A stretch of DNA of 64,000 nucleotides from Chitinispirillaceae bacterium (GTDB taxonomy: Bacteria; Fibrobacterota; Chitinivibrionia; Chitinivibrionales; Chitinispirillaceae), in contig JAFGNB010000333.1 of NCBI GenBank assembly GCA_016927235.1, positions 1 through 64,000 of the forward strand. Reading direction: 5' to 3'. The position numbers and the translations under genes are program-made. The notes below the pieces were generated by a model that was not told the origin of the DNA, searched no databases, and was given only the letters and a program-made list of their open reading frames with translations. Of this stretch, positions 15,733-30,462 are shown piece by piece (the first letter of the stretch is position 1; each line of letters starts with the position of its first letter).

Positions 15733-16662
15733 CTACTGCAGGGGCCGAAACCTGATCATCGGCGGTCGCCGTCTTTTTTTGGGTCGGTCCCGGCCGACCG
15801 GTTTTCTACGGCTATAACGGGTGAGCCAGGCTTCCGCCTTTATTATTTCTTCGGGATCATCGAACGTGAGCTCATCAGGATTACTCATGTGATAAAAAGA
15901 GTAGAGATCCGCCCATTCCTGCAGCGAGTTCGCCGTCGGCATGCGGACGGAACCTCCGTAATGGAACATCGAAAGCTCCGGGTAGTTCAGTACCGGATCC
16001 CGGCGAAAGCCCGGCGGATAGGTATAGACCCGTTCCTCGATGACGACCTTGTACTCCACCCGGTTGCAGTTATGAACCATCCGCCTTACCGTCAGGTTGG
16101 AGGGGGAAGCGGTGTCGGCGGTGTCGGGGCGGTCGTTGCGCACGCGGGGCGCCGAAAGGAGCGGAGTGGTGTCGCTTCCGGCGGCCGGAAATATTGACAC
16201 ACGTAAAAGATCGCCGGCGGGGTCGTTTGTCAGATATACCTTTACGGGAGCGGTACGATCCGCGCTTTCGACACTTTGCATCCCCGCGTAATGCCACTTT
16301 CCATCTTCGGTGTATTGAAAATGGATGACGGCGCCGCCGGCGGCTTGACCGCTTATCGTCACTTCCACGCATGAATCATCATCAGGCGCCATGCGATTGA
16401 GGCAAAGCTTCCATCGCTCCGGACGCGATACAATGAGTATTTCGGGAATACAGTAATAGTCCGCGCCGCTTTCGGCATCGGTAACGGAACTATCACCGGA
16501 GGGATCCGCAACCGCCCACCGGACGCTGATGAGAATGGAAACGATCACCATCATTGCAATCGGGCGGGAAGAGCATTTCCGCGGAGCGTCGTTGAAAAAT
16601 CCGGCTGTTCGGTTAATTTTATTCATCCATCCTCGGGTTGTCCGGTGGAATCTGCTCATCAT
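15733..16662 (-). CDS. Secreted protein of unknown function
   Basis: 309 residues from the ATG at 16662; an ATG at 16626 with GAGG just upstream is also possible. A hydrophobic segment (PIAMMVIVSILISVRWAVA) near residues 35-55 would be a signal or anchor. The middle has a beta-rich stretch (VEVTISGQAAGGAVIHFQYTEDGKWHYAG). A region about 225-285 has YPPGFRRDPVLNYPELSMFHYGG and LQEWADLYSFYHM, and the tail is strongly basic (RRKPVGRDRPKKRRRPP). I recognise no family. A surface or periplasmic role is inferred from the leader only. Confidence 0.55.
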   Translation of the reverse strand: MMSRFHRTTRGWMNKINRTAGFFNDAPRKCSSRPIAMMVIVSILISVRWAVADPSGDSSVTDAESGADYYCIPEILIVSRPERWKLCLNRMAPDDDSCVEVTISGQAAGGAVIHFQYTEDGKWHYAGMQSVESADRTAPVKVYLTNDPAGDLLRVSIFPAAGSDTTPLLSAPRVRNDRPDTADTASPSNLTVRRMVHNCNRVEYKVVIEERVYTYPPGFRRDPVLNYPELSMFHYGGSVRMPTANSLQEWADLYSFYHMSNPDELTFDDPEEIIKAEAWLTRYSRRKPVGRDRPKKRRRPPMIRFRPLQ

Positions 16663-16665
16663 CAA

Positions 16666-17063
16666 AATACTTTCCCGTGAAACCCGCGTCGCTGCAAAAT
16701 ACGTTGGAAAGAGTAGTATTTTTCTGAGGCGGGAGAGGAAGTGATTTTATCAGGTGCAGGGAAGGAGGGGGAGTACGGAGGCACTCTAAGCACCCCATGC
16801 GCCTTGAAAACCGTGATCGCCGAAACTCGGCTTCCCGCGGATTGTTAAGCGGATTTCCGACTTCCGCACCCCGCGATCACCGGAGGGCGGATGAATGGGG
16901 TTATGAAACCATGGTGCACGGACATTTACGGTCCTTCATCCTCCTAAAATTTTTTTGACACCGGTGCAAACATTTTATATTTTCACTTTTCCTTAACGGG
17001 TTGATTTGAATGACAAGTGGAAACAGTAGAACAATATAAAAGCGGTAATCCCAACTAAACGCT
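16666..17063. other. Regulatory gap before the hydrogenase operon
   Basis: No coding frame is convincing. The stretch separates the divergent unknown gene from the hydrogenase operon. Its right part is AT-rich and carries the promoter at 16955-16983. The left part (16740-16930) is purine-rich and shows no structure I can name. Confidence 0.4.
16955..16983 (+). promoter_or_regulatory. Promoter of the hydrogenase operon
   Basis: A perfect TTGACA (16955-16960) is followed after 17 bases by TATTTT (16978-16983); TATATT overlaps it at 16976. Initiation near 16990 would leave a leader of about 75 bases before the ATG at 17064. The T-run just before the -35 box may act as an UP element. Confidence 0.6.
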
Positions 17064-18101
17064 ATGGCCAAGCAGCTGAAACAGGGATGTACGATTAACG
17101 GGGTGATCGAATTTCTGACGACGGGTTGCCGTGTCTATGCGTTATCTCAAACGGATTCGAACTATCATCTTACCTCCGATGAAAAGTGGGAAAGCGACAG
17201 ACATATGCTCGGACCACACCGGCCGGTCGAGCCACTGAAATCGATACTGTTTCCTCCCCGTCAGGGGGTGGGGAGACTCCTGGAGGATGCACCACACTCA
17301 TCACCCAAACCCGCAGCGGTCATCGGAGTGAAAAACTGCGATCTCGCTTCCCTCAAAATCCACGACTATGTATTTCGCGATACCGAACCCAAAGATCCGT
17401 ATTATATTGATTTGCGCAATAATACATTGATCATTTCATGCGATTGTTCACGTCCATGCGATGTCTGTTTCTGTACCGCGGTCGGCGACCAGCCGTTTCC
17501 GGAATCAGGTTTCGATATCAATATTTCACCGCTTCCCAACAATCAGTATGTTTTGGAATCGGGAAGTGAAAAAGGGAAAAAAGCGCTTGATTCGTGCAGT
17601 GATCTGCTCGAAGAGGCTTCGCAGGATGCAATGAAAGCCCGTGATACCGCGAGAAAGGCTGTATATAAAACAGTTGAGGAACAGGCCGCGGTAAAAGGGC
17701 TGGACGGCAATAAGAATTATCAGAATGCCGTGACCGGTTCGATAGAATCGCATCTGTGGGAGCGTTTCGCGGAGGATTGCGTCGAGTGCGGCGCATGCAA
17801 TTTCGTCTGTTGCACCTGTCACTGTTTTCTGCTTGCCGACGGACGTTCTGCGACCGGAACTTCCGAAAGGGTCAAACAGTGGGATTCCTGCCTCTATAAA
17901 AATTTCGCCCGCGTCGCGGGAGGCGCAAATCCGCGAAAATACCGTGCGGAACGGTTGTATAACCGCTTCGATAAGAAATTCAATTTTTTCAAAAAAGTAT
18001 TGAATATCTATGCGTGCGACGGATGCGGACGGTGTATCGAGGCGTGCACCGGAAAAATTGATATCCGTGATGTTTTAAAAGAGGCGCTCGATGAAGCATA
18101 A
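17064..18101 (+). CDS. Iron-sulfur subunit, sulfhydrogenase beta / AsrA-like
   Basis: 345 residues. The C-terminal part carries two cysteine clusters for [4Fe-4S] centres, CVECGACNFVC (about residues 237-250) and CDGCGRCIEAC (about 315-328). A further set (CDCSRPCDVCFC, about 130) is probably also cluster-binding. The overall layout is that of the beta subunit of archaeal sulfhydrogenase (HydB) and of anaerobic sulfite reductase A. It should carry electrons between the flavin subunit at 18091 and the hydrogenase. It is the first gene of the operon, 75 bases after the predicted initiation site, and overlaps the next gene by 11 bases. Confidence 0.8.
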   Translation: MAKQLKQGCTINGVIEFLTTGCRVYALSQTDSNYHLTSDEKWESDRHMLGPHRPVEPLKSILFPPRQGVGRLLEDAPHSSPKPAAVIGVKNCDLASLKIHDYVFRDTEPKDPYYIDLRNNTLIISCDCSRPCDVCFCTAVGDQPFPESGFDINISPLPNNQYVLESGSEKGKKALDSCSDLLEEASQDAMKARDTARKAVYKTVEEQAAVKGLDGNKNYQNAVTGSIESHLWERFAEDCVECGACNFVCCTCHCFLLADGRSATGTSERVKQWDSCLYKNFARVAGGANPRKYRAERLYNRFDKKFNFFKKVLNIYACDGCGRCIEACTGKIDIRDVLKEALDEA

Positions 18102-18915
18102 TCCTTATGCCGCACTCCCCGCGACAGTGGAAAATATCATTGTCGAAACCTCGAATATCACCACCTTTACGTTCCGTCCCGAGGAACCGATTCCATTCAA
18201 GGCGGGACAATTCGTCGAACTGTCGATACCCGGTTTCGGAGAAGCCCCTTTTACCCCCTCTTCGTCCCCTGCGGTCAACGATGTCATGGATATTACCATA
18301 ATGCGGGTGGGCGCGGTAACCGAGCGGATTCATGCCTTGTCTAAGGGAGATACGGTGGGAATAAGGGGGCCGCTGGGGCAGCCATACCCCCTTGATAAAT
18401 TCAAAGGTAAAGAAATTCTCATCGTGGGCGGCGGCGTCGGACTGGCTCCCCTGCGCGCCCTGTTTTTCGCGCTTGCCGAGGAGATGGATCATTATAAAAA
18501 AATCATCCTCCGGTATGGCGCACGTTCACCGGGAGACATTGTGTATCGCAACGATGTCGCCACCGCATGGGGAAAACCGAAGGTGGACCTGATGTTGAGT
18601 GTGGACAAGGGCGATGAGGGCTGGAAGGGGAATATCGGGGTGGTCACGACGATCCTTGAAAAAAACAAGCTTTCGATAAACATCCAGAACAGCGTGGCCG
18701 TAGTCTGCGGTCCGCCCATTATGATGAAATTCGCAACGATAAAGCTGCTCGAACGGGGATATGCTCCTGAAAATATCTATCTTTCCATGGAAAAAAACAT
18801 GAGCTGCGGCATCGGAAAATGCGGGCATTGCCGAATCGGTCCCTATTACGCCTGCAAGGACGGGCCGGTATTTACCTATGACCGGATCAAAGACGAACCC
18901 CGCATCTGGGATTGA
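18091..18915 (+). CDS. FAD/NAD(P)-binding subunit, sulfhydrogenase gamma / AsrB-like
   Basis: 274 residues of the ferredoxin-NADP reductase family. The N-terminal FAD domain has KAGQFVELSIPG. The NAD(P) domain starts at EILIVGGGVGLAPLRAL (about residues 109-125). The C-terminus carries the [2Fe-2S] motif CGIGKCGHC...C (about 240-260). This is the gamma subunit of sulfhydrogenase or anaerobic sulfite reductase. It would oxidise NAD(P)H and pass electrons to the beta subunit at 17064. The pair gives the downstream hydrogenase a nicotinamide entry port. Confidence 0.85.
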   Translation: MKHNPYAALPATVENIIVETSNITTFTFRPEEPIPFKAGQFVELSIPGFGEAPFTPSSSPAVNDVMDITIMRVGAVTERIHALSKGDTVGIRGPLGQPYPLDKFKGKEILIVGGGVGLAPLRALFFALAEEMDHYKKIILRYGARSPGDIVYRNDVATAWGKPKVDLMLSVDKGDEGWKGNIGVVTTILEKNKLSINIQNSVAVVCGPPIMMKFATIKLLERGYAPENIYLSMEKNMSCGIGKCGHCRIGPYYACKDGPVFTYDRIKDEPRIWD

Positions 18916-18921
18916 GCGAAC

Positions 18922-19410
18922 ATGAGCAAACGGTTAGTGATCGATATGTATGTGTGCGATGAGTGCGATGAGTGCACGGTAAAGTGCGATTACCTCTATC
19001 AGCCTGAAATCACCGATCACGGCATGCGTGATCTCCGTGAGCGGGTCGCCTATTTATTGACGTGCCGTCGTTGCGAGGAGCCGAGCTGTGTGGCTGCCTG
19101 CAAATTTGAAGCGCTCGAGCGGGGAAGCGACGGCATTCTGAGGCGTCACAACATGCGGTGCGTGAGTTGCAAATGCTGCAGTCAGGCGTGTCCGTTCGGA
19201 ACGATCTATCCGGAACTTACCCCGTTCTATGCCGTACGGTGTGATTACTGCCTTCAGAAACTCAACGGCGGTGAACCGGCGTGTATTTCGACCTGCGCGA
19301 AAAAGGCCATTTCCTATCGGGAGGTGGATCAGTCTGAAGCGGACAAATTCCATATTGTAAATGAATATCTTGCAGTACGCGCTCCGACATGGAGCAAAAA
19401 GGAAGCGTGA
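18922..19410 (+). CDS. HycB/DmsB-type four-cluster ferredoxin subunit
   Basis: 162 residues with four cysteine groups typical of the 4x[4Fe-4S] electron-transfer subunit family (HycB, HydN, DmsB): CDECDECTVKC, CRRCEEPSCVAAC, CVSCKCCSQAC and CDYCLQKLNGGEPACISTC. It presumably bridges the HydB/HydG-like pair and the membrane hydrogenase. Its TGA overlaps the ATG of the next gene at 19410. Confidence 0.82.
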   Translation: MSKRLVIDMYVCDECDECTVKCDYLYQPEITDHGMRDLRERVAYLLTCRRCEEPSCVAACKFEALERGSDGILRRHNMRCVSCKCCSQACPFGTIYPELTPFYAVRCDYCLQKLNGGEPACISTCAKKAISYREVDQSEADKFHIVNEYLAVRAPTWSKKEA

Positions 19411-20342
19411 TGGTGAGATATCTGGTGCATATAGGCGAAGTGCTCATTTTCCCCGGGCTGTTATTTACCGCGGTGATCGGACTTGTCACATCGTGGATCG
19501 ACCGGAAGGTGACGGCGCGGGTGCAGATGCGTGTCGGCCCGCCTTTTTTACAGCCTTTTTACGATATTGTCAAATACATGATCAAAGAAACCTGCGTTCC
19601 CGCCGGAGCGTCGAAATTCGTTTTCCTCGCAGCTCCTCTTTTCGGGCTTGCGGCGGTTACCGTTGCATCAACCATTCTCTGGCGTCCGATGGTATGGCCT
19701 GAGAAATCTTTTATCGGCGATCTCATCGTGGTACTCTACCTCTTAACGATACCCGCCGTTTCAGTGGTTATCGGCTCCTTCGCCTCGGCGAATCCGATCG
19801 CCTCAATCGGCGGCAGTCGTGAAATGAAACTGATCCTTTCATATGAGCTGCCGTTCATTCTGGCCTGTCTTGTTCCGGTAATAAAAACCGGCTCAATCGA
19901 ATTCGGCAGGATACTGGCCGAACCCATGGCGGCGGCGTCGCCGGCGGGAATTATTGCATTGATCGTTGCGATCGTCTGCATGCAGGCGAAACTGACGCTG
20001 GTGCCGTTCGACATGCCCGAGGCTGAAACGGAATTGACCGGCGGAGCGTATGTCGAGTATTCCGGACCGCCGCTCGGGATATTCAAGTTAACACGAGCGA
20101 TGATGCTTTTTACGATGCCGGTATTTCTGATCACCGTGCTGTGGGGAGGCATCCCGCTGCATGAGGGAGCGGTGCCGGCGGTTCTCGGTGCGGTGAAGTA
20201 TGTCGGGCTCATAGTGATTACGGTGCTTATCCGTAACACCGCCCCGCGTGTCCGCATCGACCAGGCGATGAAATTTTTCTGGGGTCCTGTAACTCTGTTC
20301 GGCGTGATTGCGGTTATAGTGGCTTTTATCGAGGGTTTGTAA
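19410..20342 (+). CDS. NuoH-like membrane subunit of the hydrogenase (MbhM/EchB)
   Basis: 310 residues. The ATG at 19410 is chosen over 19389 because AAGGAAG sits just before it and it overlaps the previous stop by one base. About eight membrane helices are visible. The complex I subunit 1 hallmarks are WIDRKVTARVQMRVGPP (about residues 25-42), REMKLILSYELPF and DMPEAETELTGGAYVEYSG (near 200). This subunit anchors the peripheral arm and links redox chemistry to ion transfer. Its TAA overlaps the next ATG. Confidence 0.88.
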   Translation: MVRYLVHIGEVLIFPGLLFTAVIGLVTSWIDRKVTARVQMRVGPPFLQPFYDIVKYMIKETCVPAGASKFVFLAAPLFGLAAVTVASTILWRPMVWPEKSFIGDLIVVLYLLTIPAVSVVIGSFASANPIASIGGSREMKLILSYELPFILACLVPVIKTGSIEFGRILAEPMAAASPAGIIALIVAIVCMQAKLTLVPFDMPEAETELTGGAYVEYSGPPLGIFKLTRAMMLFTMPVFLITVLWGGIPLHEGAVPAVLGAVKYVGLIVITVLIRNTAPRVRIDQAMKFFWGPVTLFGVIAVIVAFIEGL

Positions 20343-20764
20343 TGAGTTTTACCGTCAATGCACTTACCCGGTCGTTGAACGTTTTCCATTTGAGCGGAAG
20401 CGCCTGTAATAATTGCGATATTGAAATACTTGATGTATTGACACCGCGTTACGATGCGGAACGTTTCGGCATCGTGCTGGTGGGAAGCATACGCCATGCG
20501 GACGTTCTCTTGCTGTCCGGGGCTTTCAACAGGAAATCGGCCGTTAGACTTAAGAGAGTTTATGAAGAGGCGCCGAAGCCGATTGTCGTTGTTGCCGTCG
20601 GCAGCTGCGCATGCACGGGGAATATATTCGCCGGTTCATACAATATTTTTGAACCGGTCTGCAATTATATCCCCATCGACGCGTTCCTGCCGGGATGTCC
20701 TCCCAAACCGGAGGCGATGATTTCCGCAATAGTGAAACTCATTGGGAAACTGAAAGGAAAATAA
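20342..20764 (+). CDS. NuoB-like small [NiFe] hydrogenase subunit (MbhJ/EchC)
   Basis: 140 residues. The four ligands of the proximal [4Fe-4S] cluster are visible: GSACNNCDIE (about residues 20-29), GSCACTGN (about 86-93) and PGCPPKPE (about 118-125). It hands electrons to the Ni-Fe site of the large subunit at 21226. Its length matches group 4 hydrogenases. It begins one base inside the previous stop and ends 4 bases before the GTG of the next gene. Confidence 0.9.
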   Translation: MSFTVNALTRSLNVFHLSGSACNNCDIEILDVLTPRYDAERFGIVLVGSIRHADVLLLSGAFNRKSAVRLKRVYEEAPKPIVVVAVGSCACTGNIFAGSYNIFEPVCNYIPIDAFLPGCPPKPEAMISAIVKLIGKLKGK

Positions 20765-20768
20765 CCAG

Positions 20769-21224
20769 GTGATAGCCGCCCGAGAAGAAATTCTTCCTGC
20801 GCTTCGCGCGAAACTGGGAAACACCATTCAGGAGGTGTTCGAAAAATCGCCGAAACGGATATATCTGCAAGTCAAAGCGGAACATATTCCACAAACCTCG
20901 CGGATACTGTTCAAGGAGCTCGAGGCACGTTTTCAGATCGCAACGGGAATCGATACGCCCGGTGCCTTCGAGATACTTTACCACTGGGCTTTTGATTTAT
21001 GCAATTGCGTGGTAACGATCAAAACGAAACTCGACCGTGAAAAGCCGGAAATCGAATCAATTGCGACTTTCTGCCCGGCGGCCGAATGGATCGAACGGGA
21101 AATGTGGGAACTGCTCGGTATTACCTTCAAAAACCATCCCGACATGAGACACCTGCTGTTGAAAGACGACTGGCCGGAGGGGCGCTATCCGTTGCGGCGG
21201 GATTATAACAAGGATATGACGTAG
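20769..21224 (+). CDS. NuoC-like hydrogenase subunit (MbhK/EchD)
   Basis: 151 residues from a GTG preceded by AAGGAAA. The C-terminal half has the 30-kDa complex I subunit signature: WIEREMWELLGITFKNHPDMRHLLLKDDWPEGRYPLRRDY. It packs against the large subunit in the peripheral arm. The N-terminal half is less conserved, as in Ech and Mbh complexes. Confidence 0.88.
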   Translation: MIAAREEILPALRAKLGNTIQEVFEKSPKRIYLQVKAEHIPQTSRILFKELEARFQIATGIDTPGAFEILYHWAFDLCNCVVTIKTKLDREKPEIESIATFCPAAEWIEREMWELLGITFKNHPDMRHLLLKDDWPEGRYPLRRDYNKDMT

Positions 21225-21225
21225 C

Positions 21226-22452
21226 ATGCCGAAAAAAACAATAGTACCGATCGGTCCCTACCATCCGCTCCAGGAGGAGCCGGAATTTTTCAAGCTTCAT
21301 GTCGAGGGTGAGAAGGTAGTCGATCTTGACATCGAAATCGGCTACAATCACCGCGGCATCGAGAAACTGTCGGAATCGAAATCATTTGAACAAAGCGTGT
21401 TTCTCGTCGAGCGGGTATGCGGTATATGTTCAACCTCCCATCCCATCGCCTGCGTGCAGGCAATTGAAGATGCGGGTGATGTTGAAGTGCCGGAACGTGC
21501 GCTCTATATTCGGTCAATTATCGGAGAGTTTGAACGGATCCATTCTCACATGCTCTGGCTTGGTCTGGCGGGCCACTTTTTAGGGTTCAATACCGTATGG
21601 ATGTGGGTGTGGCGTTATCGGGAGAATGTCCTCGATGTCATGGAGCACATCACCGGAAACCGTAATCACTATGCTATGATGAAACCGGGAGGGGTGCGCC
21701 GCGACATTTTTTCCGACGACATTCCCGGTATCAAAAAAATACTTGACGGCCTTAAAAAAGCATTGGCCCTCTTCAGGGATGCGGTTATCGACGACCCGGT
21801 GATCCATGCGCGGACGAAAGGCGTGGGCGTTCTTACCAGACAACAGATCATCGATTACGGGGCTGTCGGACCTACCGCGCGGGCTTCGGGGGTAACAATC
21901 GATGTAAGGAAAGATCATCCTCATGCTGCTTACGGTTTTGTGGACTGGAAGGTCATTACCGCCGAAAACGGTGATGTGTTCGATAAAACGGTGGTCCGCA
22001 TACTGGAAATGTTCGAATCGATTGCGATTATCGAGCAGTGTCTGGATAAATTGAAAACCGTTCCCGGTCCGGTTGATTCGAATCCGAAAGAGATCAAGCC
22101 GGGAGACGGCATCGGCCACTACGAAGCGCCGCGGGGAGAGGTATTTCACTATATCCGGAGCGACGGCACGAATCGTCCGGTGCGCCATAAAGTCCGTGCA
22201 CCGAGTTTCATGAATGTTGCGACCGACCGTGTTGCCGTTTTAGGACAGAGTATCGCCGATGCGACTATTATTCTTGCTGCAGTGGATCCCTGTTACTGCT
22301 GCACGGAGCGTATGATGGCGATTGATACGGATAAGGGAAAGCCCGCCCTGCATTCGCCCGACCTGCTTCGTTTGTCCCAGGAAAAAACCGCACGGCTCCA
22401 ACGGGAACTCGGTACAGAGGGACCGAAACTTGATTTTGGAGTATTTTCATGA
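21226..22452 (+). CDS. [NiFe] hydrogenase group 4 large catalytic subunit (MbhL/EchE)
   Basis: 408 residues. Both nickel-ligand motifs are intact: ERVCGIC (about residues 60-66) and DPCYCCTERM (about 354-363). This separates a true hydrogenase from complex I-like or Mbx-like relatives that have lost them. About 45 residues follow the second motif, so the precursor should be cut after the Arg of TER|M by the maturation protease at 29071. It reduces protons to H2 or the reverse at the cytoplasmic face. ATGA overlap with the next gene. Confidence 0.92.
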   Translation: MPKKTIVPIGPYHPLQEEPEFFKLHVEGEKVVDLDIEIGYNHRGIEKLSESKSFEQSVFLVERVCGICSTSHPIACVQAIEDAGDVEVPERALYIRSIIGEFERIHSHMLWLGLAGHFLGFNTVWMWVWRYRENVLDVMEHITGNRNHYAMMKPGGVRRDIFSDDIPGIKKILDGLKKALALFRDAVIDDPVIHARTKGVGVLTRQQIIDYGAVGPTARASGVTIDVRKDHPHAAYGFVDWKVITAENGDVFDKTVVRILEMFESIAIIEQCLDKLKTVPGPVDSNPKEIKPGDGIGHYEAPRGEVFHYIRSDGTNRPVRHKVRAPSFMNVATDRVAVLGQSIADATIILAAVDPCYCCTERMMAIDTDKGKPALHSPDLLRLSQEKTARLQRELGTEGPKLDFGVFS

Positions 22453-24329
22453 ACGAATTGATCGCGCAATCAAATATGCTCCTCACCGATCTGTCGGCGC
22501 AGCCCATGGTGCTTCTCATTGCCGTTCCGCTATTTGCGGGCATTGTGTGCAGGTTCCTTCCGTCAAAAGGTGGGGCTGTTGCAGCGGTGATCGCTTTTTT
22601 AACGGGAATTTACGCGTTTCTTATTGCCTGGCCCCTGTTTAATGCAAAGGCTGCAGCTTTTTCACACCATAACTGGCTTGCTCTCCGGCTCGACGGAATC
22701 AACGGTTTTATTCTTCTCGCGACGACCGTCTTCAGCCTTCTCATTCTGATTTATTCTTTCGGCTTCATGAAAGGGAAAGATCGACAAAACCACTATTATG
22801 CCTATATTTTGTGGACCCTCGGCGCATCGTGCGGTGCTTTGCTCGCCTCAGAATTTATTCTTCTGCTTGTTTTCTGGGGTATCCTGGGGGTAACGCTCTA
22901 TCTTCTCACCGGGATTTCCGGTCCTGAAGCTGCGGGGGCTGCGAAGAAGGCCGCCATTGTCATTGGAGGATCCGATAGTATCCTTATTTTAGGGATTGCG
23001 CTTTTATGGGTAATTCGTCATACCACCCGGATGCAGGGAGCGCCGGTGGAGTTCGGCGGACCGCTTTCATATATAGCATTTTTCTGCCTCGCGACTGCAG
23101 CTTTCGCAAAGGCGGGCGCCATGCCCTTTCACTCCTGGGTGCCCGACTGTGGCGAGAAAGCTCCTGCATCGGTCGCGGCTTTTTTGCCAGCGTCCCTTGA
23201 TAAATTACTCGGGATTTACTTTCTGTATCGCACCACGACGCTCTTTACCATGAACAGTGGAGTAACGACCGCCCTTGCTGTCATCGGCGCAGGAACGATC
23301 ATCTTTGCGGTGATGATGGCGCTGGTGCAGCACGATCTTAAGCGGCTGCTCTCCTACCATGCCGTAAGCCAGGTAGGGTACATGGTGCTGGGAATAAGTA
23401 CCGGGACGCCCCTGGGTATTGCCGGAAGTCTTTTCCATATGCTGAACCATGCAATGTACAAATCGTGCCTGTTTCTCTGCGCTGGAGCGATCGAACATCG
23501 GACCGGGACATCGGATCTGGATAAACTGGGCGGTCTTGCGAAGGCCATGCCGGTTACCCTTTTTTCATGCATCATCGCTTCAATGGCGATTTCAGGCATC
23601 CCCCCCCTGAACGGATTCGCTTCGAAATGGATGATTTACCAGGGAATCATTGAAAGCGGCAGGAGTGGGGGAGTGCTCTGGGTCGTCTGGTTGACGGCTG
23701 CCATGGTCGGGTCGGCCCTTACATTGGCCAGCTTCGTTAAACTGCTTCACGCATCGTTTTTCAGACAGCCTTCTCCCGAAGTCGCGGCGGCGAAGCCGCG
23801 GGAAGTCGGACCGGGCATGTGGCTGCCGATGGGTTTTCTTGCATTGCTATGCGTCGCCTTCGGACTGCGTTACCTGAGCCCGCTCAGTCGATTCATTTTT
23901 CCTGCGGTCAATGCGCCGGTTTCTTTTACGGGGAAATGGTTTGTCGGACCGGCGACGGTAATGATCGCGGGCGCATTGTTCGGCGGCTTACTGTTGTATC
24001 TGCTCGGAACCGTGAAAAAACCGCGGGTATGCCGCACGTACATCGGAGGCGAATATCTTGATGAAGTCTATATTTCGGGAAGCGAAAAGAGTACGGCCCG
24101 AGATGTGGAAGTAACGGGCGTTGATTTTTATCAGACAATCAGGGACATGACCCCGTTTAAACAAATCTATACCATGGCGCAGTGGAAGCTTTTCGATCTC
24201 TATGAAGTGGGGACTCACGTTTCATTTTTCATTTCCAAAATATTTCAATTTTTCCATACGGGCGTGTTGCGGCAGTATATTTCCTGGTACGTAATCGGTA
24301 TGATCATTCTATTATGGCTGATGAAATAA
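22449..24329 (+). CDS. NuoL/HyfB-like antiporter subunit of the hydrogenase
   Basis: 626 residues with about 14 membrane helices and a C-terminal extension ending in a further helix (SWYVIGMIILLWLMK). Ion-channel residues are present in AKAGAMPFHSWVPD, LKRLLSYHAVSQVGY and SKWMIYQG. At the position of the helix 5 Glu the sequence reads VFWGILG with Gly144, while the second antiporter-like subunit (25656) keeps Glu. It resembles HyfB or EchA more than MrpD, so this complex has two antiporter-type subunits. Coupled by ATGA to the large subunit gene. Confidence 0.85.
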   Translation: MNELIAQSNMLLTDLSAQPMVLLIAVPLFAGIVCRFLPSKGGAVAAVIAFLTGIYAFLIAWPLFNAKAAAFSHHNWLALRLDGINGFILLATTVFSLLILIYSFGFMKGKDRQNHYYAYILWTLGASCGALLASEFILLLVFWGILGVTLYLLTGISGPEAAGAAKKAAIVIGGSDSILILGIALLWVIRHTTRMQGAPVEFGGPLSYIAFFCLATAAFAKAGAMPFHSWVPDCGEKAPASVAAFLPASLDKLLGIYFLYRTTTLFTMNSGVTTALAVIGAGTIIFAVMMALVQHDLKRLLSYHAVSQVGYMVLGISTGTPLGIAGSLFHMLNHAMYKSCLFLCAGAIEHRTGTSDLDKLGGLAKAMPVTLFSCIIASMAISGIPPLNGFASKWMIYQGIIESGRSGGVLWVVWLTAAMVGSALTLASFVKLLHASFFRQPSPEVAAAKPREVGPGMWLPMGFLALLCVAFGLRYLSPLSRFIFPAVNAPVSFTGKWFVGPATVMIAGALFGGLLLYLLGTVKKPRVCRTYIGGEYLDEVYISGSEKSTARDVEVTGVDFYQTIRDMTPFKQIYTMAQWKLFDLYEVGTHVSFFISKIFQFFHTGVLRQYISWYVIGMIILLWLMK

Positions 24330-24338
24330 GGCGTTGAA

Positions 24339-24881
24339 ATGACGGATATCAATGTTATTCTGATGCTGATGATCGTAGGATCGATCATTGCCGTCGAAAC
24401 AAGGGACATGCTTTCCTGTGTCGTTGTCGTGGGTGTGGTCGGGCTTTTTCAATCGCTCGCATTTCTCGTTCTCAAGGCGCCCGATCTGGCGATCGTGCAA
24501 CTTGTCGTCGAAATATTAAGTCTGGTTATCCTGCTACGGGTTATCATACGAAAAGAGGCTTCCGAACCGCAGCATCATCCCGATTACTTTCCCATGCTTG
24601 TGGGAATAACCCTTTCGTTGCTGGCGCTGCTGTTTGTTCATCCGATCCTTCGGGAACTGCCGCAATTCGGGCAGCCGGTAATGAGAGTGGCAAAAGAATA
24701 TATTGAGAACGGCATGAAAGCAACCGGGGCCACCAATCTGGTGAGTGCCGTTATCCTTGATTTCCGTGCGTATGATACCCTGGGAGAAGCGGTCGTGCTT
24801 TTTACGGCAGTGTGTGGAGCGCTCATCGTATTGAGAAAAACGGGAAGAAAGAAAAAAGGAGAGCCGGAAACGGAAGCATGA
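24339..24881 (+). CDS. MbhD/MbhE-like fused membrane subunit (DUF4040)
   Basis: 180 residues with about five membrane helices. The first half matches the MbhD/MrpA C-terminal segment (KAPDLAIVQLVVEILSLVILLRVI). The second half matches MbhE (SAVILDFRAYDTLGEAVVLFTAVCG). In Pyrococcus these are two proteins and in MrpA they are the C-terminal part of one large subunit. Here they form a single short gene. It belongs to the Na+/H+ antiporter module. Its stop shares ATGA with the next gene at 24878. Confidence 0.82.
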   Translation: MTDINVILMLMIVGSIIAVETRDMLSCVVVVGVVGLFQSLAFLVLKAPDLAIVQLVVEILSLVILLRVIIRKEASEPQHHPDYFPMLVGITLSLLALLFVHPILRELPQFGQPVMRVAKEYIENGMKATGATNLVSAVILDFRAYDTLGEAVVLFTAVCGALIVLRKTGRKKKGEPETEA

Positions 24882-25318
24882 ATAAAGAACCGGGCATGAC
24901 AGTGATCGTTAAAACCGTGACGCGGCTTACCGTGGGAATCATACTCATGTACGGCATTTACATCGTGATGCACGGTCACCTCTCTCCGGGAGGAGGATTC
25001 GCGGGCGGCGTGATCATTGCTCTCTCGTTCGTCCATCTCATGCTCGCTTACGGCAAAGAGGTCGCATTCAAGAAGCTCAGTATGCCGGTCGCATCGGTGC
25101 TTGAAAGCATGGGAGCGATACTATTTATTTCGGTCGCTTTTTTAGGGCTTGTGGGGGGATACTTCTTTTTCCATACCCTGGGAAAGGGTGAACCTTTTTC
25201 GCTTCTCAGCGCGTATATGGTCCTGTTTTCCAACATTGCAATCAGTTTAAAAGTGGGGTGCGGGCTTTTCCTTGTATTGATTACCATTGCTTTGGCGGGA
25301 AAAGAGATTAAAAAATGA
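24878..25318 (+). CDS. MrpB/MnhB-like subunit (MbhF)
   Basis: 146 residues from the ATG at 24878 that overlaps the previous stop; the earlier in-frame start at 24812 lies inside that gene and is not used. Four membrane helices and the family block YIVMHGHLSPGGGFAGGVIIA are clear. It is a structural subunit of the Mrp-type antiporter module. It overlaps the next gene by four bases (ATGA at 25315). Confidence 0.85.
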   Translation: MNKEPGMTVIVKTVTRLTVGIILMYGIYIVMHGHLSPGGGFAGGVIIALSFVHLMLAYGKEVAFKKLSMPVASVLESMGAILFISVAFLGLVGGYFFFHTLGKGEPFSLLSAYMVLFSNIAISLKVGCGLFLVLITIALAGKEIKK

Positions 25319-25650
25319 CTTACTTCCTTTGTATGATCATCTTTGCCATCGGACTTTACGCCGTCGTAGCAAAAAGGAATATGATAAAAATCATCATCGG
25401 TATCATGGTGATGGAGTATGCCCTGAATATGCTGTTCGTGTTGTTCGGTTACCGGCAGGGCGGACGATCGCCGATTTTAGAAAAAGCTCAAACAATCACA
25501 AATATTGTGGATCCGTTACCGCAGGCGCTTATCCTGACGGCCATCGTCATCGGATTGGCGACCACGGCGCTTATGGTTGCTCTGGCGGTAAGGATTTACG
25601 AGAAGTACGGGACATTCGACATTACGAAAATCAGGAAACTGAGAGGATAG
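25315..25650 (+). CDS. MrpC/NuoK-like subunit (MbhG)
   Basis: 111 residues, three membrane helices, with the NuoK/MnhC pattern NMIKIIIGIMVMEYALNMLFV and DPLPQALILTAIVIGLATTAL. It forms part of the ion pathway between the antiporter subunits. It is followed after 5 bases by the MrpD-like gene, which begins at GTG 25656. Confidence 0.87.
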   Translation: MTYFLCMIIFAIGLYAVVAKRNMIKIIIGIMVMEYALNMLFVLFGYRQGGRSPILEKAQTITNIVDPLPQALILTAIVIGLATTALMVALAVRIYEKYGTFDITKIRKLRG

Positions 25651-25655
25651 CGGTT

Positions 25656-27161
25656 GTGAGCGGTATAAATTATACTATGATTCCTTTATTCGTTGCCCTG
25701 CCGTTAACGGTTTCCTTTCTTATAATGCTTCTTGGAAACAGGGTACGATGGATAAGCGATATGTTATGCACCGTCGTCGCGCTTGCGTTGTGCCTGCTTT
25801 CTTTTTATGCGGTCGGGGTGGCAAGCGGCAGCGGGCCTTTAGTTTACAGAATGGGCGGATGGCTTCCTCCGGCGGGAATATGCCTGGTGCTTGATTCGCT
25901 TTCCGTTTTCATGCTGGTGATTGTAAACGTCATCACGTTGATAGTTACGATTTACGCCATCAATTATATGGAACAATATACTGCGAAAAGCAAATTTTAT
26001 GCGCTGTTTCTGCTTATGCTTGCCGGCATGAACGGCGTCATCGTTACCGGCGACATGTTCAACCTCTTTGTTTTTCTGGAGATCGGTTCCATAGCAAGTT
26101 ACGGACTGGTTGCCTTCGGCACTGAAGAGGAAGAGCTCGAAGCGTCGTTTAAATACATGATCATGGGTTCTATTGCCGGTCTTTTCATTCTTCTGGGTAT
26201 CGGACTTCTGTATTCGTACACTTCGACACTGAATATGGCGGACATGGCACTGGTGGTGAGTGAAAAGAGCGGATCAAAGCTGATAGGATTCGTGTCGGTT
26301 CTTTTTCTGGTCGGTTTCGGACTGAAGGGCGCGCTTTTCCCGTTTCACTGGTGGCTTCCCGATGCGCACCCATCCGCTCCTGCTCCTATTTCGGCAATGC
26401 TGTCGGGATTATTGATAAAGGCGCTCGGCGTCTACGCGCTTATTCGTGTTTTTTTCAGTGTGCTTGGTGCAACCGCGTTCCTGCCGGTAGCAATGGTTCT
26501 CGGAACCATGTCAATGGTGATAGGGGTATTTCTTGCGGTCGGACAATGGGATTTTAAAAGGCTTTTAGCGTATCACTCCATAAGCCAGGTGGGGTATATA
26601 ATGCTCGGCATCGGACTAGGCACGCCGCTTGGGATTTTGGGTGGCTTGTTTCACCTCTTTAACCATTCCATGTTCAAATCGCTCCTGTTCCTTAATTCAG
26701 GCGCGGTCGATTACGCAACGGGCAGCCGTAATCTCAAGGAACTGGGTGGATTACGGGAACGCATGCCCGTGAGCGCATCCACCAGCATGGTAGCTTCAAT
26801 GTCGATTGCCGGCCTTCCGCCGTTCAACGGATTCTGGAGTAAGCTCATTATTATTATTGCCTGTGTCGATGCAGGACATCCGGTGTACGCCGCGTGGGCG
26901 GTAGTAGCGAGCATCATGACCTTGGCGTCATTTATGAAAGTTCAAAAGTATGTCTTTTTCGGCGAACTGAAGGAGAAGTTCAATGCCATCAAGGAGGTGC
27001 CGTTTGCAATGCAGTTTTCAATGGTATTTCTGGCGGCAATCTGCTTTCTAGGGGGGCTGCTGTTGGTACCGGCCGTTTCGGGCGATTTTTTGCAATCCGC
27101 CGCTGATACCGTTGCCAACGGAACGGAATATGCAAAAATGGTGTTTCAATCTTTGCAATAA
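25656..27161 (+). CDS. MrpD-like antiporter subunit (MbhH)
   Basis: 501 residues. The GTG at 25656 is chosen because GAGAGGA lies just before it; ATG 25677 is an alternative. A longer open frame reaches back to 25287 but overlaps the MrpC-like gene completely. Ion-translocation residues are intact: Glu142 in FVFLEIGSIASY, Lys in LKGALFPFHWWLPDAHPSAPAPISA, Lys in FKRLLAYHSISQVGY and Lys in SKLIIII. It should pump Na+ or H+ coupled to hydrogenase turnover. Confidence 0.88.
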   Translation: MSGINYTMIPLFVALPLTVSFLIMLLGNRVRWISDMLCTVVALALCLLSFYAVGVASGSGPLVYRMGGWLPPAGICLVLDSLSVFMLVIVNVITLIVTIYAINYMEQYTAKSKFYALFLLMLAGMNGVIVTGDMFNLFVFLEIGSIASYGLVAFGTEEEELEASFKYMIMGSIAGLFILLGIGLLYSYTSTLNMADMALVVSEKSGSKLIGFVSVLFLVGFGLKGALFPFHWWLPDAHPSAPAPISAMLSGLLIKALGVYALIRVFFSVLGATAFLPVAMVLGTMSMVIGVFLAVGQWDFKRLLAYHSISQVGYIMLGIGLGTPLGILGGLFHLFNHSMFKSLLFLNSGAVDYATGSRNLKELGGLRERMPVSASTSMVASMSIAGLPPFNGFWSKLIIIIACVDAGHPVYAAWAVVASIMTLASFMKVQKYVFFGELKEKFNAIKEVPFAMQFSMVFLAAICFLGGLLLVPAVSGDFLQSAADTVANGTEYAKMVFQSLQ

Positions 27162-27173
27162 GTATAGAAAGTC

Positions 27174-27674
27174 ATGAAGGTGAAAAGCAGAATTGTATTT
27201 TTTATCGTTGTATTCGGCTTGTGGCTTCTTCTTTGCATGGCATTTGATTGGGAGCATGTGCTCATCGGTGCCGTGGTTGCATGTTTTGTTTCGTTGATTG
27301 CCGGAGATATATTCGTCACGCGACCGCATGTTCTGAAAAATCCTTTACGGTACCTGTGGTTCATGTACTATGTACCACTTTTTATTTGGGAATGCCTGAA
27401 AGCGAACCTCGACGTGGCATACCGGGTGATTCATCCGATGCGTCCCATCAAACCGGGAATCGTAAAGGTAAAAACAGGGTTGAAATCGGAAACGGGGTTG
27501 ACGTTCTTGGCGAATTCCATCACATTGACGCCGGGAACGATGTCCGTTGATTTCGACAGGGAAAAAGGAATTCTCTACATACATTGGATTAATGTGGCAT
27601 CGATGGATATCGAGAAAGCGACTGAACGTATCGTAGCACGATTCGAACGTGTTCTGGCGAAAATCTTCGAATAG
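27174..27674 (+). CDS. MrpE/MnhE-like subunit (MbhA)
   Basis: 166 residues with two N-terminal membrane helices and the family block KTGLKSETGLTFLANSITLTPGTMSVDF, then LYIHWINV. This is the MnhE domain of Mrp antiporters and of MbhA. Its exact role is unclear, but it is always part of the antiporter module. ATG preceded by a weak ribosome site. Confidence 0.87.
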   Translation: MKVKSRIVFFIVVFGLWLLLCMAFDWEHVLIGAVVACFVSLIAGDIFVTRPHVLKNPLRYLWFMYYVPLFIWECLKANLDVAYRVIHPMRPIKPGIVKVKTGLKSETGLTFLANSITLTPGTMSVDFDREKGILYIHWINVASMDIEKATERIVARFERVLAKIFE

Positions 27675-27698
27675 TATATTGAAAGTAAACGGAGACGC

Positions 27699-28070
27699 AT
27701 GAAACGGATGATTGCATGGCTGGCTGGTACCATAGGCATAGGAGCGGTGCTTTATGTCATTTTTTATCATCCGCTCCCGGTTCTGTTTTTTCCGGAGTTG
27801 CCGCACCTCTCTTTTTTCGGGCGTTGTTTTTATATTCTGCTGCTTGCGGCATCACTGTGCCTTATCCGCGTTGCACTCGGACCTACCGCCGCCGACCGTA
27901 TCGTCGCCATTGATATTCTCGGTATCTTGATTGTGGGCTTTTGCGCGATAGTGAATATTCCGACGGGCCGCGGATGGTATATGGATATCGCCATTGCGTG
28001 GGCGTTGCAGAGTTTTATTGCAACCCTTGCGCTGGCGAAATATCTTGAAGGGAAAAACCTTGATGATTGA
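27699..28070 (+). CDS. MrpF/MnhF-like subunit (MbhB)
   Basis: 123 residues. The core RVALGPTAADRIVAIDILGILIVGFCAI is the MnhF signature, with three membrane helices and an extra N-terminal helix. It overlaps the MrpG-like gene by eight bases (ATG 28063). Confidence 0.85.
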   Translation: MKRMIAWLAGTIGIGAVLYVIFYHPLPVLFFPELPHLSFFGRCFYILLLAASLCLIRVALGPTAADRIVAIDILGILIVGFCAIVNIPTGRGWYMDIAIAWALQSFIATLALAKYLEGKNLDD

Positions 28071-28395
28071 GATCGCGGGAATAATTTTTATCACCGTCGG
28101 GTTGCTGTTTGATCTGTTGGGATGTATCGGATTGGTACGAATGCCGGATGTTTACAACAGGCTGCAGGCTTCGACAAAATGCGTGACCTTCGGCACCTGC
28201 AGCATAATGTTCGGCACGTTTCTCATGGTCGGATTCAACGCTACCGGCATGAAGGCGCTGCTCTGCATTATCTTTGTCGCCCTGACCGCACCGGTATCCG
28301 CCCACGCTTTGTCGCGCGCGGCTCATAAATCGGGGATCAAGCTATGGGACAAAAGCGTTGTTGATCAGTATCGTGAGGACTGTCCGGCCGAGTAA
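28063..28395 (+). CDS. MrpG/MnhG-like subunit (MbhC)
   Basis: 110 residues from the ATG at 28063; the earlier frame start at 27994 lies inside the MrpF gene. The MnhG pattern LLGCIGLVRMPDVYNRLQASTKCVTFG and ALTAPVSAHALSRAAH is clear, with three membrane helices. With the genes from 24339 onward, it completes a full set of Mrp-type subunits. Confidence 0.86.
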   Translation: MIEIAGIIFITVGLLFDLLGCIGLVRMPDVYNRLQASTKCVTFGTCSIMFGTFLMVGFNATGMKALLCIIFVALTAPVSAHALSRAAHKSGIKLWDKSVVDQYREDCPAE

Positions 28396-28414
28396 ATTAT
28401 TATAGGAATGTATA

Positions 28415-29026
28415 ATGAAGCTCCCGTGTCTTTTTCAGTTAAGAATACTTAAAGTGGCGCTTGCATCGCTTTTCGGGCGTCCTTACACTACCGCTTTTCC
28501 AAAGGGCGGCTATACGCCGAGCGAAAGGTACCGCGGAAGGCCGAGATACGATGAGACCGAATGTATCGGCTGCGGCGCTTGTGCGGAGGTTTGTCCTTCC
28601 AACGCGATTGAAATGATCGACGATATCGCCTCAGATGCTCCCCGTCGCATACTGATCCAGCATCTCGACACGTGCATCCAGTGCGGTCAATGTGAGCGAT
28701 ACTGTACTTCCGAAAAGGGAATCAAGCTTTCCACCGAATGGGACTATGTCGGTTTTGCCCGGAAAGACTTCGAGGAGCGTGTCGAGAAAGAGCTTCTTCT
28801 TTGTGAAGTGTGTGGAAAAGTTCTGGCGCCGATCGACCAGATACGATGGCTGGTAAAACGCCTCGGGGCCCTTGCATTCTGTAATCCCACCCTTATGCTC
28901 GTATCACATTCGAACCTTCAGGTGGTCGATCGGGGATTTGATCCGGGAGACGGTTATCCGCTTCGCGCCCGGCGGATTAACATTCAATGCCCCCATTGCC
29001 GCCGCAAGACAGCGATGACCGTATAG
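28415..29026 (+). CDS. NuoI-like ferredoxin subunit (MbhN/EchF)
   Basis: 203 residues with two [4Fe-4S] motifs, CIGCGACAEVCPSNAIEM (about residues 49-66) and CIQCGQCERYC (about 86-96). Four further cysteines (CEVCGK near residue 131 and CPHC near 193) might bind a metal. It connects external electron donors to the small subunit at 20342. In Pyrococcus the equivalent gene is last in the mbh operon, and here it also closes the structural set. Confidence 0.85.
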   Translation: MKLPCLFQLRILKVALASLFGRPYTTAFPKGGYTPSERYRGRPRYDETECIGCGACAEVCPSNAIEMIDDIASDAPRRILIQHLDTCIQCGQCERYCTSEKGIKLSTEWDYVGFARKDFEERVEKELLLCEVCGKVLAPIDQIRWLVKRLGALAFCNPTLMLVSHSNLQVVDRGFDPGDGYPLRARRINIQCPHCRRKTAMTV

Positions 29027-29070
29027 GGTCGCTTTGCGTCAAGTGGTGCAGGCACGCAGAGTGGTAGACC

Positions 29071-29598
29071 GTGGAAACGACGATTCCCGTATCAACACCT
29101 GAAGTTGTTACTACAAATGACGGAAGCGCTCTTCATGCGGCGATCGCCGAGATCGTTACCGCTGATACGTTGCTTGTAGGTATCGGCAATAACATGCGCG
29201 GCGACGACGGGGCGGGGCCTTGTTTAATCGAAATTATCGCCGACTATGTTTCCGTGCCGTGCATCAATGCCGGATCGGTTCCGGAAAATTATCTTGAAAA
29301 AATGGTGATGCTTCACCCGGAGACGATTATCTTTATCGATGCAGCCGATTTTTTAGGCATTCCCGGCGAAATAAAGCTGTTTGGCCATGACGCCATATGC
29401 AGGGGCGCCTGTTCGACGCACACGGGATCGATGGCGCTGATCACCGCTTATTTACAACATCGAATGCCTTCAACGAGGATCTGTATCATTGCCGTTCAGC
29501 CGCAGTCAATCATGTTGAACGGTTCGATAAGCAATGAGGTGCGGCGGGCGATCACTAGACTTACATCGATTTTCATGCAGGTATTCCCCCATGCATGA
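29071..29598 (+). CDS. hycI: [NiFe] hydrogenase maturation protease (HycI family)
   Basis: 175 residues from a GTG. The family motifs are LLVGIGNNMRGDDGAG (about residues 31-48), FIDAADF with the second acidic ligand, and STHTGSM with the His. The protease removes the C-terminal peptide of the large subunit after nickel insertion, fitting the long tail of the protein at 21226. About 30 extra residues precede the usual start, so a later start is possible. It overlaps hypA by eight bases. Confidence 0.85.
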   Translation: METTIPVSTPEVVTTNDGSALHAAIAEIVTADTLLVGIGNNMRGDDGAGPCLIEIIADYVSVPCINAGSVPENYLEKMVMLHPETIIFIDAADFLGIPGEIKLFGHDAICRGACSTHTGSMALITAYLQHRMPSTRICIIAVQPQSIMLNGSISNEVRRAITRLTSIFMQVFPHA

Positions 29599-29941
29599 AT
29601 TCAATGTATGCCAGTCGATCATCAATACGGTAATTGAACAGGTGGCCGGAAAAAGCCAAAATCGGCCCAACATCCTAAAAACTACCGTGGTTATCGGTGC
29701 GTTGCGCCCGCTTGTTTCCGAGTACCTGACGTTCGCTTATACCTATCTCGCGAAAGGCACTGCCGCCGAAGGATCGGAACTTATCCTCAAACGTCCGCAG
29801 GCAAGGGGAAAATGCAGCCGATGCGGATTACTCAGTGAGCGTGTGGAGGGGTCCTTTCGATGCGTGCGGTGCGGCGGGGAAAAAGGAGAAATTATCGGGG
29901 GACGCGAATTATATATTGAGTGTATTGAAGTCAGCAACTAA
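29591..29941 (+). CDS. hypA: Hydrogenase nickel-insertion protein HypA
   Basis: 116 residues from the ATG at 29591, which gives the conserved MHE N-terminus with the nickel-binding His2. The zinc site is CSRCG...CVRCGG (about residues 73-93). The earlier in-frame start at 29534 would bury the MHE motif. HypA loads nickel with HypB, which is not in this window, nor are hypC, D, E and F. It is the last gene of the hydrogenase run. Confidence 0.85.
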   Translation: MHEFNVCQSIINTVIEQVAGKSQNRPNILKTTVVIGALRPLVSEYLTFAYTYLAKGTAAEGSELILKRPQARGKCSRCGLLSERVEGSFRCVRCGGEKGEIIGGRELYIECIEVSN

Positions 29942-29970
29942 ACTATCATTATAATAAAGGAGTTGAGACC

Positions 29971-30462
29971 ATGCCGATCACTTTCAATGTCGACGAAGTT
30001 TTTACGCTTGCCGAACAGATCGAACGGAACGGTGCGGCGTTCTACCGGAAATGCGCTGAAATAAGCATGGAGGAAAAAGATTTTCTTTTAAACCTCGCTT
30101 CCATGGAAGAAGGCCATCTTGCTACATTCCAACAGATGCACCAATCGGTAACCTCCCGTGAATCGGACCTTTCCGCTGCGGATCCCGACCGTGAAGCCGG
30201 TGAATATCTGAATAATATGGCGGGCGGATATGTATTCGATACGCGCAAGGATCCGTCGGCGACGTTGAGCGGCTCCGAACGGTTGCCGGATATTCTACAA
30301 ACCGCAATCGGACTCGAAAAGGATTCCATCGTCTTTTATCTTGGCATAAAAGAGATGGTACCCAGGAGTGCCGGCAAGGAAAAGATCGATGCAATTATTA
30401 AGGAAGAAATGAAGCATGTCACCATGCTCAGCGCCAAACTGAAGGAAACGACAGGCGCTTGA
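29971..30462 (+). CDS. Ferritin-like (rubrerythrin-type) diiron protein
   Basis: 163 residues, all helical. Diiron ligands appear in two pairs: EQIERNGAAFY with EEGH, and LEKDSIVFY with EEMKH. There is no rubredoxin cysteine domain. AAAGGAG precedes the ATG. It probably scavenges peroxide or handles iron, which would protect the oxygen-sensitive hydrogenase encoded just upstream. The link is inferred from position. Confidence 0.78.
   Translation: MPITFNVDEVFTLAEQIERNGAAFYRKCAEISMEEKDFLLNLASMEEGHLATFQQMHQSVTSRESDLSAADPDREAGEYLNNMAGGYVFDTRKDPSATLSGSERLPDILQTAIGLEKDSIVFYLGIKEMVPRSAGKEKIDAIIKEEMKHVTMLSAKLKETTGA

Follow-up and report, generated by a model that had tools for sequence, protein, structure and literature searches.

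The membrane-bound hydrogenase (Mbh) of Pyrococcus furiosus has one antiporter-like subunit and contains no HydB, HydG or HycB. Among the [NiFe] hydrogenases of group 4, HydDB lists group 4g without a known function and as putatively ferredoxin-coupled, and papers on metagenome-assembled genomes (MAGs) assume a ferredoxin donor (PMC5037454, PMC7886697, PMC8542988). No 4g enzyme has been characterised so far (PMC7886697), and the consulted parts of PMC5037454 and PMC8542988, the latter of which lists the hydrogenase of Ca. Saelkia tenebricola as Mrp-linked 4g, make no mention of an NAD(P)H head for this group. The nearest precedent among open-access papers (a description could also exist in a subscription journal) is a locus of Saganbacteria RX5A, where a group 4 [NiFe] hydrogenase with nearest relatives in Zixibacteria and Omnitrophica is accompanied by Mrp genes, cooF, asrA and asrB (Matheus Carnevali et al., 2019; PMC6349859). 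Its authors proposed an Mbh-like function; an NAD(P)H donor, control by Rex and a wide distribution are not named in the consulted parts of that paper. Here we analysed a window of 64,000 nucleotides from a Chitinispirillaceae bacterium of the Fibrobacterota (contig JAFGNB010000333.1, positions 1 to 64,000; source genome 4.15 Mb, 87% complete), which carries at 17064-29941 one tight operon of 18 genes, all intact and on the forward strand, in the order HydB, HydG, HycB, MbhM, MbhJ, MbhK, MbhL, MbhH1, MbhD/E, MrpB, MrpC, MrpD, MrpE, MrpF, MrpG, MbhN, HycI and HypA. An earlier note on this DNA had described a sulfhydrogenase-type beta/gamma pair and a HycB-type ferredoxin leading a group 4 [NiFe] hydrogenase with a complete Mrp set, and all of these genes were confirmed. 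Judged from gene content and motifs, their products probably assemble into a single membrane complex that would act reversibly and without bifurcation as an ion-translocating NAD(P)H:H+ oxidoreductase and exchange energy with a Na+ or H+ gradient.

The electron-entry head and its conservation

The first gene encodes HydB (17064..18101), a sulfhydrogenase beta or AsrA-like Fe-S protein (PF17179) whose best NCBIfam match is the sulfhydrogenase beta family ShyB (4.8e-46; AsrA, 1.4e-30) and whose sole relative in the PDB is the beta subunit of P. furiosus sulfhydrogenase 1 (9nez_B). Fifteen cysteines of HydB are invariant across the family of related operons, and its cluster cysteines align with those of the P. 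furiosus subunit. HydG (18091..18915; PF00175, PF10418, PF00970), the predicted diaphorase subunit with FAD, NAD(P)H and [2Fe-2S] sites, matches AsrB best (3.2e-69), followed by sulfhydrogenase gamma (4.8e-64; structure 9nez_C, 2.3e-52), and retains the flavin motif, GGGVGLAPLR, CGPP and four [2Fe-2S] cysteines, which are conserved in the family. Since the scores of both proteins lie under the cut-offs of the ShyB and AsrB families, they are regarded as relatives and not as members of these. The third gene encodes a HycB/CooF-type ferredoxin (18922..19410) with 16 conserved cluster cysteines and a match to HycB of Escherichia coli formate hydrogenlyase (FHL; 7z0s_B, 2.2e-10). A further Fe-S protein, MbhN (28415..29026), has two [4Fe-4S] sites and an extra CxxC/CxxC site and resembles HycF of the same enzyme (7z0s_F, 2.1e-17 across 123 residues). 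HydG is a single-FAD protein of the PyrK/AsrB type, and no bifurcating flavoprotein of the NfnB, NuoF or HydC type was found among the genes at 17064-30462; confurcation of NAD(P)H with ferredoxin, which the earlier note had considered, was therefore rejected.

A scan of 84,980 species genomes yielded 264 relatives of the large subunit MbhL, of which the best 80 were fetched for locus analysis. HydB, HydG and HycB precede the hydrogenase core genes in 51 of the 52 informative loci, defined as those with more than 4.5 kb of upstream DNA. The sole exception, L077 on a Gammaproteobacteria MAG contig, has a truncated MbhM fused to an unrelated phosphatase-like frame and looks like a misassembly or misjoin. 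The record titles of the loci carry about 18 phylum-level labels, some of which may reflect misbinning. The divergence of HydB and HydG parallels that of MbhL as closely as the divergence of the core subunits does: pairwise distances correlate with those of MbhL at r = 0.82 for HydB, 0.84 for HydG and 0.83 for HycB, compared with 0.78 for MbhJ and 0.75 for MbhM, and none of 999 permutations gave values as high for HydB and HydG. The HydG proteins of the operons form a single clade (support 100/99) apart from the other HydGs sampled, which came from Fibrobacterota, one Verrucomicrobia locus and P. furiosus. In the MbhL tree the family likewise forms a clade of its own (99/99), with Pyrococcus MbhL as sister to the whole family on a long branch and with modest support (89/78). 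The cross-phylum comparison of gene order that the earlier note had called for thus bears out its view that the NAD(P)H module is part of the hydrogenase, as do the co-divergence, the single HydG clade and the frequent Rex-type operators described below. Among genomes with named records, a Chitinispirillaceae MAG (Fibrobacterota) is the nearest, its MbhL being 90% identical; in the congeneric genome G001 a contig break within MbhM splits the operon, and both contig ends match the same gene order.

Some loci depart from this arrangement. L092 and L141 (Elusimicrobia and Spirochaetota) keep HydG-HycB-MbhM-J-K-L-MbhN-HycI but lack most or all antiporter and Mrp genes; judged from these two loci, the head varies less than the ion-pumping arm. 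Further upstream genes are present in the Clostridia-type loci L085, L087 and L088; in L087 they include one whose 925-aa product resembles the alpha subunit of formate dehydrogenase. An upstream formate dehydrogenase as the true head was rejected, as it is present in a few Clostridia-type loci only. Related Fibrobacterota (G003, G007, G008, G014, G025, G031 and G043) also carry a second type of group 4 hydrogenase (L006-L012), whose MbhL is about 40% identical and ends right after DPCISCTER; the C-terminal extension is missing in L011 and L012, the two sequences that were read to their ends.

Rex is a sensor of NADH/NAD+ and normally derepresses its targets at high NADH. The inverted repeat TTGTGA-N6-TCACAA occurs in 18 exact copies in 1.18 Mb of locus DNA, 17 of which lie at most 100 bp upstream of hydB. 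The remaining copy (L109) is close to where a rex reading frame preceding hydB starts, at a distance of about 0.7 kb upstream of hydB. When the operator was scrambled in 40 permutations, one apparently reproduced the true half-site (identical counts of 18 and 17), and the remaining 39 yielded, by the printed means, about two sites between them, neither of which was near hydB. All 21 sites of the shorter form TGTGA-N6-TCACA fall within 800 bp upstream of hydB, with outer bases T..A in 18. A rex gene adjoins hydB in 13 loci and lies about 14 kb downstream in L125, and Rex-linked Omnitrophota have near-matches to the operator before rex. CRP is a less likely reader of the shorter form, since its A..T outer bases occur in 0 of the 21 sites and rex adjoins hydB in 13 loci. 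By these predicted sites, the operon family is often under Rex-type control, which in several phyla links it to NADH balance.

The hydrogenase core, membrane arm and flanking genes

MbhL (21226..22452; PF00346, 5.3e-68; PF00374) carries both Ni-ligand CxxC motifs (RVCGIC and DPCYCCTER), and the four Ni-ligand cysteines are kept in every family sequence that covers them. A C-terminal extension of 46 residues beyond DPCYCCTER fits the presence of a HycI-type maturation endopeptidase in the same operon (29071..29598; PF01750; TIGR00142, 3.9e-26), which is followed by the nickel chaperone HypA (29591..29941; PF01155, 1.4e-24). The best solved relatives are P. furiosus MbhL (6cfw_L, 2.1e-88) and E. 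coli HycE (7z0s_E, 1.1e-80). Because of both nickel motifs, the tail and these nearest structures, MbhL is considered a hydrogenase and not an Mbx/MBS-type relative without nickel. With its Nuo/Complex I-type large subunit, its maturation genes and partners resembling NuoB, C, H and I, the enzyme belongs to group 4 of the [NiFe] hydrogenases; these partners include the NuoH-like membrane subunit MbhM (19389..20342; PF00146, 2.3e-63), the NuoB-like small subunit MbhJ with four conserved cysteines (20342..20764; PF01058) and the NuoC-like MbhK (20769..21224; PF00329).

The Mrp set is complete (MbhD/E, MnhB, MrpC, MrpD, MnhE, MrpF and MnhG). Both antiporter-like subunits have conserved lysines as well as acidic or histidine residues: the first, MbhH1 of the NuoL/MrpA-N type (22449..24329; PF00361), has conserved charged residues including K221, K252, H330, K338 and K393, and the second, MrpD (25677..27161, with its first ATG at 25677; PF00361, 1.1e-64), has E135, K217, K294, K334 and K389 conserved in an alignment of 16 sequences. 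The remaining subunits of the arm are MbhD/MbhE, corresponding to the C-terminal part of MrpA (24339..24881; PF13244, PF20501), MrpB (MnhB; 24878..25318; PF04039), the NuoK-like MrpC (25315..25650; PF00420), MrpE (MnhE; 27174..27674; PF01899), MrpF (27699..28070; PF04066) and MrpG (MnhG; 28063..28395; PF03334). The starts given here for MrpB (24878), MrpD (25677), MrpG (28063) and HypA (29591) are corrected ones and are probably right.

Most adjacent genes overlap or lie few bases apart (overlaps of 11 bp between HydB and HydG and of 22 bp between HycB and MbhM), and a sigma-70-like promoter, TTGACA-17-TATTTT, is predicted just 5' of hydB (16955..16983, forward strand) in a block conserved in G001. 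Because the genes overlap or nearly touch and the conserved promoter precedes hydB, those for HydB and HydG probably come first on a transcript shared with the rest of the operon. A rubrerythrin-like gene on the forward strand (29971..30462; weak PF02915), which is the same neighbour after hypA in G001 (76% identical), may be the last gene of the operon. Directly upstream of the operon lies a 310-aa open frame on the reverse strand (15733-16665) with no NCBIfam match.

Proposed mechanism and alternative explanations

The anatomy of the head suggests an electron order of NAD(P)H, FAD, HydG, HydB, HycB, MbhN, MbhJ and the Ni-Fe site. A hydride from NAD(P)H would be transferred to FAD in HydG, from which single electrons would exit via the [2Fe-2S] cluster of HydG to the clusters of HydB and then pass through HycB, MbhN and MbhJ to the Ni-Fe site of MbhL, where protons would be reduced to H2. 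The coupling of this electron flow to ion movement would fall to MbhM and to the two antiporter-like subunits together with the Mrp set, and no electron bifurcation is proposed. With assumed potentials of -320 mV for NADH and -370 mV for NADPH, the computed energy of H2 formation from NADH is +18 kJ/mol at 1 bar H2, +1 at 100 Pa and about -5 at 10 Pa, and that from NADPH is +8.5, -9 and about -14 kJ/mol, respectively. As the reaction is near balance under the conditions of anaerobic sediments, a reversible coupling to an ion gradient makes sense. In this fermenter the complex would most likely serve as an outlet for NAD(P)H through H2 formation, in a mildly exergonic reaction at low H2 and pulled by the ion gradient at higher H2.

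The source genome contains a single HydB homologue together with Rnf and NuoEF-like genes, whereas no other [NiFe] hydrogenase, no [FeFe] hydrogenase and no second homologue of the complex I 49 kDa subunit were found at 87% completeness. Its contigs C99 and C339 (L153 and L154) carry NuoE/NuoF-like and HndC/HoxU-like genes, although neither an [FeFe] nor a second [NiFe] hydrogenase was found in the genome. Within this completeness, the complex would be the sole hydrogenase through which the genome's host could release electrons of NAD(P)H as H2. A role of HydB and HydG in a group 3b hydrogenase or in Asr was rejected for the source genome, since it encodes a single HydB and lacks a group 3 hydrogenase.

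That the complex runs mainly from H2 to NAD(P)H and conserves energy where H2 is abundant appears unlikely. The same anatomy would serve this direction, group 4 enzymes and sulfhydrogenases are reversible, and at 1 bar H2 the reduction of NAD(P)+ by H2 would release about 8 to 26 kJ/mol with the assumed potentials; yet derepression by Rex at high NADH fits NADH disposal better, HycI-processed cores of the Mbh/FHL type are usually H2-evolving, and Rnf is present in a genome in which no other hydrogenase was found. A slightly weaker case can be made for ferredoxin as the main donor, entering via HycB or MbhN, with HydB and HydG as a side entry and both donors used together. HycB is a polyferredoxin, Mbh accepts ferredoxin, and the HydDB entry for group 4g, as far as consulted, gives a putative coupling to ferredoxin (PMC5037454). 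Flavin-based confurcation, on the other hand, requires a bifurcating flavoprotein such as NfnB or, in [FeFe] enzymes, HydB/HydC, and the operon encodes none, and mixed donors without a bifurcating flavin would merely equilibrate. Least plausible is that HydB and HydG make up a soluble NAD(P)H enzyme of their own, resembling a sulfite or polysulfide reductase, that is merely co-transcribed: HydB and HydG match AsrA and AsrB too, but the operon has no AsrC or other catalytic partner, the position of the head is fixed, its proteins co-diverge with MbhL in distant phyla, and a second HydB is absent from the source genome.

Several points weigh against the proposed NAD(P)H-linked, ion-translocating complex. 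HycB itself could take electrons from ferredoxin. Rex also controls enzymes without direct NADH use, so that the operators speak for a role in redox balancing and not for a substrate; moreover, a Rex operator was looked for and not found in the window or its sister genome, and no exact operator was found anywhere in the source genome, though one Rex gene is present. As a few loci (L092, L141) keep the head without Mrp genes, ion coupling may vary, and at 87% completeness other hydrogenases could be missing from the genome.

If the complex works as proposed, it would probably allow a fermenting bacterium to make H2 straight from NAD(P)H while exchanging energy with an ion gradient. More tentatively, and short of what we would call likely, a large share of the uncharacterised Mrp-linked group 4g enzymes may be ion-translocating NAD(P)H:H+ oxidoreductases instead of ferredoxin hydrogenases, using protons where complex I uses quinone, regulated by NADH/NAD+ and serving as the main redox valve in many uncultured anaerobic phyla. 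Were NAD(P)H indeed the donor, the formation of H2 from it would be coupled to an ion gradient, and for this reason models of H2 production, redox balance and syntrophy would need revision for Omnitrophota, Kiritimatiellota, Elusimicrobiota, Fibrobacterota and others.

Relationship to described hydrogenases

With P. furiosus Mbh (HydDB group 4d; 6cfw) the operon shares the core subunits and the Mrp set, and MbhL of that enzyme is the best PDB match; the membrane arm in the window resembles that of Mbh/MBS. In contrast to Mbh, the operon encodes two antiporter-like subunits as well as HydB, HydG and HycB, and a predicted nicotinamide module is conserved in the operon family, which by gene content separates it from a ferredoxin-only enzyme without such a module. 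P. furiosus sulfhydrogenase 1 (group 3b; 9nez) has the same beta/gamma pair, with aligned Fe-S and flavin motifs, but is soluble and has a group 3b catalytic subunit, whereas the core encoded in the window is of group 4 and predicted to be membrane-bound, its MbhL and MbhJ standing in place of the alpha and delta subunits. The HycB-like and HycF-like electron wire and the maturation by HycI are shared with E. coli FHL (group 4a; 7z0s), in which a formate dehydrogenase takes the place of HydB and HydG; the window operon contains no formate dehydrogenase gene and has a full Mrp set. If NAD(P)H is its donor, the complex would be a natural link between the H2-evolving Mbh and complex I, which oxidises NADH, although its own NAD(P)H module is unrelated to that of complex I. 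Among the loci of this family, L117 is that of the 4g hydrogenase of Ca. Saelkia tenebricola; it contains HydB-HydG-HycB. The Saganbacteria RX5A locus, which unlike the window operon has a molybdopterin oxidoreductase in addition (PMC6349859), most likely belongs to the same family; the earlier note's term "new arrangement" is overstated in view of this 2019 description, although the link to NAD(P)H is not drawn in the consulted parts of that paper. The operon family is a widespread new variant of group 4 hydrogenase that was partly anticipated in 2019.

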